Assembly: GCF_003427025.1 (NCBI RefSeq)
Contig: NZ_QVAI01000021.1
Coordinates: 62,001-126,000, forward strand
Direction: 5' to 3'
DNA length: 64,000 bases
Origin: Jiangella endophytica
Lineage (GTDB): Bacteria; Actinomycetota; Actinomycetes; Jiangellales; Jiangellaceae
Position numbers and translations under genes: made by a program. The notes under the pieces were generated by a model. That model saw only the letters and a program-made list of their open reading frames with translations. It ran no database searches and was not told the DNA's origin. Positions 5,404 to 43,227 of the stretch are shown here, piece after piece (the stretch's first letter is position 1; each line of letters opens with the position of its first letter).

Positions 5404-7023
5404 GTGACCGACCCCGCGTCCGACCCCGCGCCCGACCGAGCGCCCGACCGAGCGCCCGACCGAGCGCCCGACCCGGCGACCGATGCCGAGACGGCGCGGC
5501 CGTGGTGGCCGCCGGCGCTGGCCGGTGTGGTGGCGCTGGGTCTCGGGCTGGCGGTCGCGGAGGTCGTGGCCGGTGCTCTGGGGAGGGCCGAGACGCCGGT
5601 GGTGGCGGTCGGCGAGGTGTTCATCGACCACACGCCCGGCTGGCTGAAGGATTTCGCCATCCAGACGTTCGGCACCCACGACAAGACCGCCCTGCTCGTG
5701 GGCATGGGCGTGGTGCTGGTGGTGCTGGGCGCGCTGATCGGCCTGCTCACCGCTCGGAGTAAAGGCCTCGGGCTGCTGGCGGCGACCGTGGTGCTGGTGG
5801 TCGCCGGGCTGGCGGTCAACGCGCGGCCGGACACCACGATGGCCGACCTCATCCCGACCCTCGCCGGGGGCCTGGTGGCGCTGCCGACGCTGAGCTGGCT
5901 GGTCGGGAAGGCGGCACCGCCCGCACCCGCGGGGCCGGTGCTGCCGGCGAGGCCCGCGCCGACCCGGCGCTCGTTCCTGACCGTCGCCGGCATCACGGCC
6001 GGCCTCGCGGTCGTCGGCGCGGGGCTCGGCCAGGTGCTCGGCGCGCGCCGGGCCGGCGTCGAGACGTCCCGCGACGATCTCGCGGCCAGCCTCGACCTGC
6101 CCCAGGCGACCCCGCCGCGCGGCGTCGACCTCTCCGTCTCCGGGGAGGATCCGTGGCGCACCCCCAACCAGCACTTCTACCGCATCGACACCGCGCTGTC
6201 CGAGCCACTGGTCCGGGCCGAGGACTGGACGCTGCGGGTGCACGGCATGGTCGAGACCGAGGTCGAGCTCGACTACGGCGAGCTCGTCGCGATGGGCCTG
6301 GAGAACCGGTGGCTGACGTTGAACTGCGTCTCGAACGAGGTCGGCGGCCACCTCATCGGCAACGCGCTGTGGACCGGCGTGCCGATCGCCGACGTCCTCG
6401 CGCTCGCGAAGCCCAGGGCCGACGCCGACGCCGTCCGGTCCCGCTCACAGGACGGCTGGACCGCCGGCACCCCGCTCGACGTCCTCACCGACGGGCGCGA
6501 CGCACTGCTGGCGGTCGGCATGAACGGCGACCCGCTGCCGCTGGCGCACGGCTTCCCGGTGCGGATGATCGTGCCCGGCCTGTACGGCTACGTCAGCGCG
6601 ACCAAATGGGTCGTCGAGCTGGAGGTGACCCGGTTCGACGACTTCGAGGCCTACTGGACGACGCGCGGCTGGGCCGAGAAGGGCCCGGTCAAGGTGGCCT
6701 CGCGCATCGACGTGCCGAAGGGCCACGCGCACGTCGACGCCGGCACCGTCGCCGTGGCCGGGGTCGCCTGGGCGCAGCACCGCGGCATCCAGGGTGTCGA
6801 GGTGCGGGTCGACGACGGCGACTGGAACGCCGCGCGGCTGGCCGCCGTCCCCAGCGCCGACACCTGGCGGCAGTGGGTGTGGGAGTGGGACGCGCAGCCG
6901 GGCGACCACCGGCTGCAGGTCCGCGCCACCACCGCTGACGGCGAGGTGCAGACGTCCGAGCAGGCGCCGCCGGTCCCCGACGGCGCCTCCGGCTGGCACA
7001 CCATCGACGTCACCGTCGGCTGA
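5404..7023 (+). CDS. Membrane-anchored molybdopterin-dependent oxidoreductase (sulfite oxidase fold)
   Basis: A 539-residue protein with a four-to-five-helix membrane module (about 37-58, 95-116, 122-139, 145-166, 192-210) followed by an extracytoplasmic sulfite-oxidase-type catalytic domain and a C-terminal Mo-dimerisation-like beta domain. RRSFLTVAG near 188 precedes the last hydrophobic segment. The molybdenum ligand is Cys308 in LTLNCVSNEVGG, followed by the family GVPIADVL and PGLYGYVSATKW motifs. The start is GTG at 5404; its first 30 residues hold an APDR tandem encoded by a 12-bp repeat. The electron partner and substrate are unknown. The stop codon forms the left end of the palindrome at 7021-7072. 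Confidence 0.9.
   Translation: MTDPASDPAPDRAPDRAPDRAPDPATDAETARPWWPPALAGVVALGLGLAVAEVVAGALGRAETPVVAVGEVFIDHTPGWLKDFAIQTFGTHDKTALLVGMGVVLVVLGALIGLLTARSKGLGLLAATVVLVVAGLAVNARPDTTMADLIPTLAGGLVALPTLSWLVGKAAPPAPAGPVLPARPAPTRRSFLTVAGITAGLAVVGAGLGQVLGARRAGVETSRDDLAASLDLPQATPPRGVDLSVSGEDPWRTPNQHFYRIDTALSEPLVRAEDWTLRVHGMVETEVELDYGELVAMGLENRWLTLNCVSNEVGGHLIGNALWTGVPIADVLALAKPRADADAVRSRSQDGWTAGTPLDVLTDGRDALLAVGMNGDPLPLAHGFPVRMIVPGLYGYVSATKWVVELEVTRFDDFEAYWTTRGWAEKGPVKVASRIDVPKGHAHVDAGTVAVAGVAWAQHRGIQGVEVRVDDGDWNAARLAAVPSADTWRQWVWEWDAQPGDHRLQVRATTADGEVQTSEQAPPVPDGASGWHTIDVTVG
5431..5478 (+). repeat. In-frame 12-bp tandem repeat (GCCCGACCGAGC)
   Basis: About four copies encode alternating APDR units at the extreme N-terminus of the molybdopterin oxidoreductase, before the first membrane helix. 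A copy-number change would stay in frame. Confidence 0.8.
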
Positions 7024-7072
7024 TCATGGCGCTCTTTCTGCTGCTCTGGCCGCACGAAGAGCGCCATGATCA
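7021..7072. terminator. TGATCA-capped palindrome carrying both convergent stop codons
   Basis: Perfect 16-bp arms, TGATCATGGCGCTCTT (7021-7036) and its complement (7057-7072), enclose a 20-nt loop. The first TGA (7021-7023) is the stop of the plus-strand oxidoreductase. The last bases (7070-7072, TGA on the minus strand) are the stop of the GH43 lipoprotein. It is a plausible bidirectional terminator. Confidence 0.85.
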
Positions 7073-16743: not shown

Positions 16744-16793
16744 CGTCAGGAGGGAGTGTCACCTGCGTGAGCAAGGGAAACTCCCTCCTGACG
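16744..16793. repeat. Palindrome, right member of a matched pair
   Basis: Perfect 14-bp arms, CGTCAGGAGGGAGT (16744-16757) and its complement (16780-16793), around a 22-nt loop. The arm matches that of the palindrome at 16502-16550; the loop does not. It could serve as a terminator for the DoxX gene at 16852-17289. Confidence 0.8.
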
Positions 16794-23740: not shown

Positions 23741-23812
23741 GTTGATCTTGGAGTTGTTCGGCGACCGTGGGGTGATATGTCCGATAGATGGCCGAAGAAC
23801 TCCAAGATCAAC
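23741..23812. terminator. TTGATC-capped palindrome at the cbiO/hrpA junction
   Basis: Arms of 22 bp (23741-23762 and 23791-23812; one mismatch) begin GTTGATCTTGGAG and enclose a 28-nt loop. The hrpA stop (TGA on the minus strand, 23808-23810) lies in the right arm; cbiO ends 40 bp before the left arm. A bidirectional terminator is likely. Confidence 0.85.
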
Positions 23813-42040: not shown

Positions 42041-42112
42041 CCCGCGGCCCGCGCCTCGTCGCTGTCTCGCCCGCCGCCGTGGCCCTGCCGCCCACAGCCC
42101 GCGTCGACCCGT

Positions 42113-42169
42113 TGATCATGGAGAAGTCGGGGTTCTCCGCCGCTCGGAACCCCGACTTCTCCATGATCA
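42113..42169. terminator. TGATCATGGAG palindrome at the 3' end of the DUF559 nuclease gene
   Basis: Perfect 23-bp arms (42113-42135 and 42147-42169) begin TGATCATGGAGAAGTCGGGG and enclose an 11-nt loop. The last bases form the TGA stop of the minus-strand nuclease (42167-42169). The same arm sequence recurs at 43118-43174, beyond the nuclease start. Confidence 0.9.
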
Positions 42170-43063
42170 GCCGATGGCTGCGGAGCGGAGTTGGACGTGG
42201 CGGCGGATGCGGTCGATGGTCCGCTGACGGTGACGGAGGACGTCGTCGGCGGTGAGCACGATGACGATCCAGCCGGCGTCGCGCAGTTGTTCGTCGCGGA
42301 ACCGGTCGCGACGCCATTGGCGTTGGTCGGTGCGGTGGTGATCGCCGTCGTACTCGATGGCGATGCGCAGCCGCGGGTACGACAGGTCGGGGCGGGCGAG
42401 CCAGGCGCCGGTGTCGTCGATGACGTTCACTCCCACCTCGGGGCAAGGAAGGCCGGCCGCGACGATGAGCAGGCGGACGCGCGTCTCCATGGGCGAGTCG
42501 ACGCCGGGACGGATCATTCGGAGCGCCTCGCGGGCACGGACGATGCCCCGCCGTCGGGTCAGCCCGCAGACCTCGTCGTGCAGACCTTCGGGCGTGGTCC
42601 AGCGGCGCAGCATGGCGTCGCCGAGTGCGACGAGGTCATCCAGCCGCCAGGTGGCGGCCAGGTGGACGAACGTGCGTTCCGGCGCGACGACCGGCAGGCC
42701 GTGGACGTCGATGACGGTGCCCGGGTCCAGTCCGGTGCGGGCGTCGGTTCGATCCAGACGCGGCACTACGGCGCCGGGCGGCACGATGACGTCGACGCGT
42801 CCGTCGAACTCCGCGACAGGCAGGTCGCACAGCAACGCGGCGGTTTCGTGGCTGAACGCGACCTCGCGGGGGAGTGCGAGGCGGGCGGCCCGGCACGTCG
42901 TGACGAGTGTGTCCGGCAGCGATGCGGGGACGCGCACACCGCGGAACGGCCGCCGGAACCGCGGCCCGTCGAGGACGTCGACGGGTACGCCCGCCGACCT
43001 CGCGTGGCGGACGCGGAAGGGTCGCGAGCAGAACGGTTCGGGGATGACGACGCGGCGTGGCAT
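42167..43063 (-). CDS. DUF559/Vsr-fold endonuclease-domain protein
   Basis: A 298-residue protein. The N-terminal part resembles AbiEi/DUF559-associated helix-turn-helix proteins (VFSHETAALLCDLPVAE-type, DVIVPPG, GLPVVAPERTFVHLA). The C-terminal domain is a Vsr-like nuclease: SPMETRVRLLIVAAGLP, the catalytic block LARPDLSYPRLRIAIEYDGDHHR, then RDRFRDEQLRDAGWIVIVLTADDV. Such solitary nucleases are abundant in actinobacteria with unknown roles. The ATG is at 43063. It lies between two palindromes with the same arms, and a DnaA-box-like TTATCCACA precedes it (43104-43112). Confidence 0.85.
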   Translation of the reverse strand: MPRRVVIPEPFCSRPFRVRHARSAGVPVDVLDGPRFRRPFRGVRVPASLPDTLVTTCRAARLALPREVAFSHETAALLCDLPVAEFDGRVDVIVPPGAVVPRLDRTDARTGLDPGTVIDVHGLPVVAPERTFVHLAATWRLDDLVALGDAMLRRWTTPEGLHDEVCGLTRRRGIVRAREALRMIRPGVDSPMETRVRLLIVAAGLPCPEVGVNVIDDTGAWLARPDLSYPRLRIAIEYDGDHHRTDQRQWRRDRFRDEQLRDAGWIVIVLTADDVLRHRQRTIDRIRRHVQLRSAAIG

Positions 43064-43117
43064 CGCCCGATCATGACCGGTCCCGGATGATCTTGATCAG
43101 CGTTATCCACAGGCAAG

Positions 43118-43174
43118 TTGATCATGGAGAAGTCGGGGTTCCGAGTGACGGGGAGTCACGACTTCTCCATGATC
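43118..43174. repeat. TGATCATGGAG palindrome upstream of the DUF559 gene
   Basis: TTGATCATGGAGAAGTCG (43118-43135) pairs over 16 bp with 43159-43174; the 23-nt loop contains a smaller TGAC/GTCA hairpin. The first 22 bases of the unit match the palindrome at 42113-42169. It also lies 54 bp beyond the stop of the LigD-type gene, which it may terminate. Confidence 0.85.
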
Positions 43175-43227
43175 GACAGTGGGCCGGGGGTGGACGTTGG
43201 ACGGGGGTGGAGGTCGGGCCGGGACGG

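Follow-up and report, generated by a model that had tools for sequence, protein, structure and literature searches.

Why is a nuclease gene bracketed by two copies of what looks like the same palindrome, and has the gene anything to do with the palindromes? The question is raised by a locus in a 64,000-nt stretch of the Jiangella endophytica genome (the window), where a protein of 298 residues, nuclease A, is encoded on the minus strand at 42167-43063 between an FUSC_2 gene and a LigD (Prim-Pol) gene. An earlier note on this DNA had described a perfect palindrome at the stop of the gene, a second one with the same first bases upstream of its start, and a DnaA-box-like sequence ahead of it, and all three are there. 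The 3' palindrome (42113-42169) consists of perfect 23-nt arms, 42113-42135 and 42147-42169, around an 11-nt loop, and the stop codon of the gene falls within its outer arm. The 5' palindrome (43117-43177) has imperfect arms of its own (26 nt, 85%) and is inverted relative to the 3' copy, with which it shares a longest common run of 25 nt in direct and 27 nt in inverted orientation. Between it and the start codon, about 40 nt upstream of the start, lies the DnaA-box-like TTATCCACA (43103-43111). The two palindromes, which define class A, are mutually inverted over 72-nt arms (82%) and so look like terminal inverted repeats, each of which is itself a palindrome. With up to 3 mismatches allowed, the 20-nt arm TGATCATGGAGAAGTCGGGG has four matches in the window, all at the nuclease A locus, and none in 100 shuffles; in the genome to which the window belongs (G000; 7.85 Mb, 89 contigs) exactly three full palindromes carry the exact window arm, namely the two at the window locus and one solitary copy.

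The gene product was analyzed by profile searches and by structural modeling. Nuclease A matched Pfam DUF559 (E 2.9e-5; 24.3 bits, over the cut-off of 20.6) and MTES_1575 (E 1.2e-8; 35.4 bits, just below the cut-off of 38.2), PADLOC AbiEi models matched its N-terminal part (best E 1.2e-5, and 2.7e-24 for the clade C enzyme), and an NCBIfam search returned nothing over a cut-off. In the AlphaFold model (mean pLDDT 96.1, pTM 0.90) residues 1-185 are predicted to adopt an AbiEi-like fold and residues 188-295 a Vsr/EDxHD nuclease fold. Residues 3-185 of the model resembled AbiEi (6y8q; Z 12.0, rmsd 5.6, 175 residues) and the N-terminal part also Rv2827c (Z 9.1), which accounted for both of the two matches with E < 0.001 that Foldseek alone returned. 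Residues 190-295 resembled the catalytic domain of I-Bth0305I (3r3p; Z 12.9, rmsd 2.6 Å, 97 residues), and the C-terminal part further resembled the DUF559 structure 3hrl (Z 12.0) and Vsr (1cw0; Z 11.0), a fold comparison that agrees with the previous suspicion of a Vsr-type enzyme. The model of the clade C enzyme (pLDDT 86.2, weakest around residues 250-256) had the same architecture (AbiEi Z 12.3, 3hrl Z 8.9, I-Bth0305I Z 8.5), and S190, E193, R197, D226, G240, D253, and R256 were invariant in an alignment of 47 family proteins. As modeled, nuclease A is an AbiEi-antitoxin-like part joined to a Vsr/I-Bth0305I-like nuclease part, although a common fold proves no function.

We then asked how often matched palindromes accompany genes of this family. 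Among 82 loci with a family gene, 74 with sufficient flank were scored and 8 were dropped. The two flanks shared a common run of at least 16 nt at 23 of the 74 family loci compared to 4 of 414 pseudo-gene placements at the same loci, and palindromes with exact arms of at least 14 nt stood on both sides of the gene at 12 of 74 family loci and at none of the 414 placements, counts in which loci from related species are not independent. Outside Jiangella, flank runs of at least 16 nt were present at 18 of 66 loci versus 4 of 384 placements. Furthermore, seven syntenic segments (424 kb, 57 palindromes) were scanned without regard to genes for matched pairs 0.5-1.7 kb apart. All three pairs enclosed a family gene, which filled the ~1 kb inside each of them. 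When ORFs of these segments were scored in the same way, a matched run of at least 14 nt together with a palindrome was found at none of 236 non-family ORFs vs 4 of 7 family ORFs; 7 of the 9 family ORFs in the segments had at least one palindrome nearby and 2 had none. The expectation that matched palindromes would be commoner around family genes than around controls was therefore confirmed.

Within the set of 12 Jiangella genomes (G000 to G011), nuclease clades A, B, and C each have their own palindrome class, and palindromes of classes D and E lie next to other genes of the family; the palindromes of the Jiangella classes are 46-76 bp long. A looser pattern (TTGATCNTGGAG ... CTCCANGATC) retrieved 65 palindromes in G000, of two kinds (class A, ~57 bp; class B, 67-69 bp), and a reversed control pattern retrieved none. 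From G000 to G011 the class A/B counts were 65, 4, 99, 12, 17, 138, 57, 50, 28, 89, 2, and 50 (range 2-138), and the control gave 0 in each of the 12. Besides nuclease A, G000 has a single A/B-type nuclease (L008, at G000:C23:518385), which is 43% identical; the palindromes on its two sides are a matched pair of class B. Class C was spotted first as a palindrome pair in G006, and the gene inside, not picked up by the class A search, proved to encode an AbiEi-like nuclease. In G002 there was no nuclease A/B match at E 0.001, yet the genome has 99 A/B palindromes, and palindromes thus seem to outlast loss of the enzyme.

Solo palindromes are also present in the window itself: a class B copy at 23741-23812, whose cognate enzyme is the paralogue at L008; a class D copy at 7021-7072, where the relative G008 has a whole palindrome-nuclease-palindrome unit; and a class E-like copy at 16744-16793 with GGAGGGAGT arms, as found next to family genes in G007 and G001. 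The content of these three sites varies among Jiangella genomes. A further palindrome class (GCTTTGCAATGAGCACC, GCTTTGCAATGAGCACCGATACGCACC) has two solos in G001 that are missing from G010, and solos of the further class lie in G001 at 109941, 160279, and 194929 of the joined segment (L265-L274, L180-L182, L245-L254). At two variable G001/G010 solo sites ~100 bp replaces 6-12 unrelated bases, which is not a clean insertion. Canonical intrinsic terminators were considered as an identity for the solos and set aside: none of 15 distinct solo palindromes had a run of at least four T in the 14 flanking bases. Actinobacterial terminators are frequently without T runs, and for this reason the test is not decisive.

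Left and right inner arms of the same unit agreed at 0.93 in class A (10 units), 0.92 in class B (8), and 0.91 in class C (9), and between units at 0.66, 0.57, and 0.50 respectively, as counted after removal of duplicates and only over units with the outer-arm motif on both sides; the within-unit agreement was reached by 0 of 2000 permutations in each of the three classes. Protein similarity and arm similarity correlated with r of 0.48 (A), 0.29 (B), and 0.62 (C), values that were reached by 45, 239, and 73 of 5000 permutations, the correlation in class B being marginal. Covariation within the inner arms is stem-like. Among 43 Promicromonospora palindromes, the 33 that are 59 nt long were examined (60-nt ones were excluded; the search pattern itself dictates the outer 11 bases). 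The bases at position 12/48 pair in 25 of these 33, through 3 pair types, where 12.1 were expected, and those at 22/38 in 18, where 9.4 were expected; at several inner positions pairing was not over expectation. The covariation argument leans on this set, since type A of the window's own genome contributed only 7 sequences of one length out of 9 typed, with two end bases assumed.

The DnaA-box-like motif is likewise a conserved component of the units. TTRTCCACA, which we take to resemble the actinobacterial DnaA-box consensus, was present without mismatch within 200 bp upstream of 28 of 77 distinct family genes and in none of 355 control stretches; when one mismatch was allowed, the counts became 46 of 77 and 4 of 355. 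Its place in class A is ~40-50 nt ahead of the start codon. DnaA may bind this upstream motif.

Comparison of related genomes showed that units and solo palindromes lie at differing sites and that units at one site differ exactly between the palindromes, in either orientation. The FUSC_2/LigD junction could be compared in nine genomes with both flanks. G000 carries the unit, the site is empty in G010, G007, G011, and G004, solo palindromes occupy it in G002 (class A) and G006 (class C), and G001 and G008 have unrelated repeats; in a tenth genome, G003, one flank only was found. Both the empty sites and the one-palindrome sites that had been suggested as a check were thus recovered in relatives. 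Units of J. aurantiaca (L039, whose coordinates coincide with G005:C95:156-1043) and two further loci (L040, L043) occupy the same genomic location as the window unit. For the class A units at L041, L042, L044, and L045, from J. ureilytica and others, similarity to the window is restricted to the unit; in L042 it spans 42088-43192, from palindrome to palindrome. Similarly, clade C is present in seven copies at seven G000 loci, one of them broken, and the mutual likeness of these copies is limited to the palindrome-bounded unit. At the class D site, G001 and G008 differ by a precise 46-bp presence/absence, the direction of which is ambiguous because of a shared TGA. No clean insertion boundary or target-site duplication was legible, either at the window locus or at the two variable G001/G010 solo sites. 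Only weak matches to the A enzyme were found in phage (1 record) and plasmid (4 records) sequences, and carriage by either was set aside.

Exchange at a fixed site was most apparent at the L225 site of G000. Here 5 of 5 genomes with recognizable flanks carry clade C units, which differ from one another, at a flank identity of 84-98% and with two of the units inverted; G006 and G007 gave no flank match. Between G010 and G001 the flanks are 97.6 and 94.8% identical while the unit is 77.0% identical and inverted, with differing inner arms, and between G010 and G008 the flanks are 95.8 and 88.5% identical and the unit 79.5%. The corresponding values for G010 and G000 (93.5, 86.4, and 84.4%) are as inheritance would give. 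In G002 the unit is inverted as well, and there is a transposase-like insertion in a palindrome. The G002 insertion interrupts the left-hand palindrome of a clade C unit (L287-L289; G002:C1:6975000-7024999, reverse complement) at ~22.6-25.4 kb of the joined segment and recalls insertion sequences that target REPs.

Relatives of the enzyme in Promicromonospora, Leifsonia, Microbacterium, and other genera are also flanked by matched, lineage-specific palindromes. Two Promicromonospora genomes contain 43 and 23 dispersed palindromes (control 0), and dispersed arm matches were present in 2 of 3 Leifsonia genomes (22 and 28, both strands) and absent from the third. In the wider A/B set, flank runs of at least 14 nt occurred at 23 of 66 non-Jiangella loci; among 27 loci with a clade C enzyme in other genera, one had a matched pair (L216) and three had a single palindrome. 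The palindrome association is not universal across the family. Some palindromes of the Promicromonospora genomes G212 and G213 contain a further palindrome internally, whose loops resemble TCGAAACGTTTCGA, and are perhaps a separate subclass. In Bifidobacterium (L080, L085, L095) family genes lie between long flank runs of 19-34 nt that are shared by the two sides and have other repeat forms.

We consider it somewhat probable, at roughly 0.55, that the window locus is a self-contained mobile unit, made up of palindrome, gene, and palindrome, which homes to palindromes and works much as a REPtron does with an unrelated enzyme. In this model, the steps of binding, cutting, and homing are postulated from sequence and structure comparison. 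The nuclease itself, we infer, moves or maintains the palindromes. Its AbiEi-like part would bind the palindrome with one monomer per arm, as AbiEi antitoxins do on paired 23-bp inverted repeats, its EDxHD/Vsr-like part would cut or nick the palindrome, and repair would copy the unit from another palindrome-bearing locus via the common outer arms. AbiEi is described as binding two 23-bp inverted repeats 3 bp apart, with two monomers bending the DNA (PMC7319586), and I-Bth0305I as dimerizing on a target just short of 60 bp (PMC3943268). Two 23-nt arms around an 11-nt loop would be the target expected of a dimer that joins both parts. Homing into a palindrome would insert a complete unit and could exchange one unit for another, in either orientation since the arms are mirror images. 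If a unit's two palindromes recombined with each other, a single one would be left behind as a solo. Cutting and copying via outer arms would yield whole units between whole palindromes, exchange at fixed sites, and both orientations. By occupying the 5' palindrome, the protein would also act as a repressor of its own promoter, where the DnaA-box-like motif may couple expression to replication. As solo palindromes are found alongside apparently intact enzymes, cutting would have to be rare or controlled. Counted against a homing unit are the palindromes of G002 in a genome with no A/B match, the few matched pairs in distant genera, the 2 of 9 family ORFs without a palindrome, and the unreadable target-site duplication.

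Homing into existing palindromes does not account for new solo sites, and the main rival is for this reason a REP-like transposition, in which the nuclease would act on palindromes folded into a single-strand hairpin or a cruciform and insert palindromes and units at new sites. The dispersed solos (2-138 per Jiangella genome, 43 and 23 in the two Promicromonospora genomes), the stem-like covariation of the inner arms (25 of 33, 3 pair types, vs 12.1 expected), and the solos of G001 that are missing from G010 would all be explained in this way. However, the enzyme is without a known transposase or strand-transfer domain, the two variable solo sites that were read, with ~100 bp in place of 6-12 unrelated bases, are no clean insertions, and the exchange and inversion of units at a fixed site fit homing better, and we regard transposition of this kind as possible but rather unlikely. 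It is improbable that the palindromes are the ends of an element moved in trans by another transposase or recombinase, with the AbiEi-nuclease as cargo: the PADLOC AbiEi matches of the N-terminal part and the occurrence of such domains in defense proteins would suit a cargo gene for defense, but palindrome sequence tracks the nuclease clade and copy, which is not required of cargo, the ~1 kb inside three matched pairs is the family gene, and Y1 transposases, the family searched for genome-wide, were not found in the 12 Jiangella genomes.

The palindromes could also be regulatory sites of use to the host (operators or terminators), at which a domesticated AbiEi-like protein with a residual nuclease fold would act as regulator. 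AbiEi proteins are described as repressing via inverted repeats (PMC7319586), one palindrome lies upstream of the start codon, and palindromes remain in G002, where the A/B enzyme was not found. Such a role is nevertheless very doubtful given the invariance of the acidic residues E193 and D226 in 47 aligned proteins, the empty sites, multicopy units, and unit exchange, and the lack of T runs of at least four at all 15 solos. High-GC genomes are rich in inverted repeats, and generic repeats unrelated to the gene might be expected to flank it by coincidence; this is hardly credible in view of flank runs of at least 16 nt at 23/74 loci vs 4/414 placements, two-sided palindromes at 12/74 vs 0/414, and a matched run plus palindrome at 0/236 non-family vs 4/7 family ORFs.

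A homing unit of this kind shares features with several known systems. The earlier note had likened the locus to REP/RAYT units, and this likeness stood as regards cognate flanking palindromes, many solos, enzyme-specific classes, and presence/absence among relatives, but not as regards the enzyme. The Y1 HuH transposase domain (PF01797) was found in 0 of 12 Jiangella genomes and in 5 of 14 control genomes; a RAYT/Y1 origin was rejected for Jiangella on this ground, and the fold is AbiEi plus EDxHD/Vsr. The REPtron is described as an enzyme gene bordered by cognate palindromes, with many solos and enzyme-specific classes (PMC8266576, PMC3733652). Jiangella units too have cognate bordering palindromes that are also dispersed; in contrast, their enzyme is an AbiEi and Vsr/EDxHD nuclease instead of HuH Y1, their palindromes measure 46-76 bp compared to the 20-40 bp given for REPs in PMC3733652, and clade C units exist in several copies, unlike tnpA-REP, which has been described as mostly single copy. 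By analogy, the Jiangella unit works like a REPtron and lacks the Y1 enzyme that defines one. With the EDxHD homing endonuclease I-Bth0305I the enzyme shares its catalytic fold (3r3p Z 12.9; clade C Z 8.5) and a long target of palindrome size, and the unit differences at a fixed site are consistent with homing; unlike it, the Jiangella gene is outside an intron or intein, has whole palindromes on both sides and an AbiEi-like DNA-binding part, and its presumed target exists in many dispersed copies. The AbiE type IV toxin-antitoxin system (AbiEi, Rv2827c) is similar in the fold of residues 1-185 (Z 12.0, 9.1) and in its inverted repeats near the promoter, but the Jiangella protein has an extra nuclease domain, and the AbiEii nucleotidyltransferase toxin partner was absent among the two neighbors tested at the window locus, FUSC_2 and LigD Prim-Pol. 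Vsr mismatch endonuclease and DUF559 proteins share the fold and the conserved acidic residues of the C-terminal part, whereas the Jiangella enzyme is fused to an AbiEi-like domain and palindrome-bounded.

No description of an association between AbiEi-nucleases and palindromes was found in the open-access literature as covered, and the palindrome-bounded nuclease genes of soil actinobacteria look like a hitherto undescribed sort of selfish mobile DNA. On the broadest reading, to which we give a little under an even chance, they would represent a new class of bacterial selfish replicator, in which AbiEi-EDxHD nucleases recognize their own long palindromic operator, home from palindrome to palindrome, and seed solos while enzyme and palindrome diversify together, as a REPtron analogue that arose independently from an antitoxin and a homing nuclease. 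In the literature covered, dispersed palindromes linked to an enzyme have so far been tied in bacteria to a single family (RAYT, HuH). If the reading is true, a second, unrelated enzyme has its own palindromes, and palindromic replicators arose more than once; the units would be a likely source of palindromic repeats in high-GC actinobacteria, and their enzymes would have long targets that can be read from the genome beside the gene, making their specificity directly testable.
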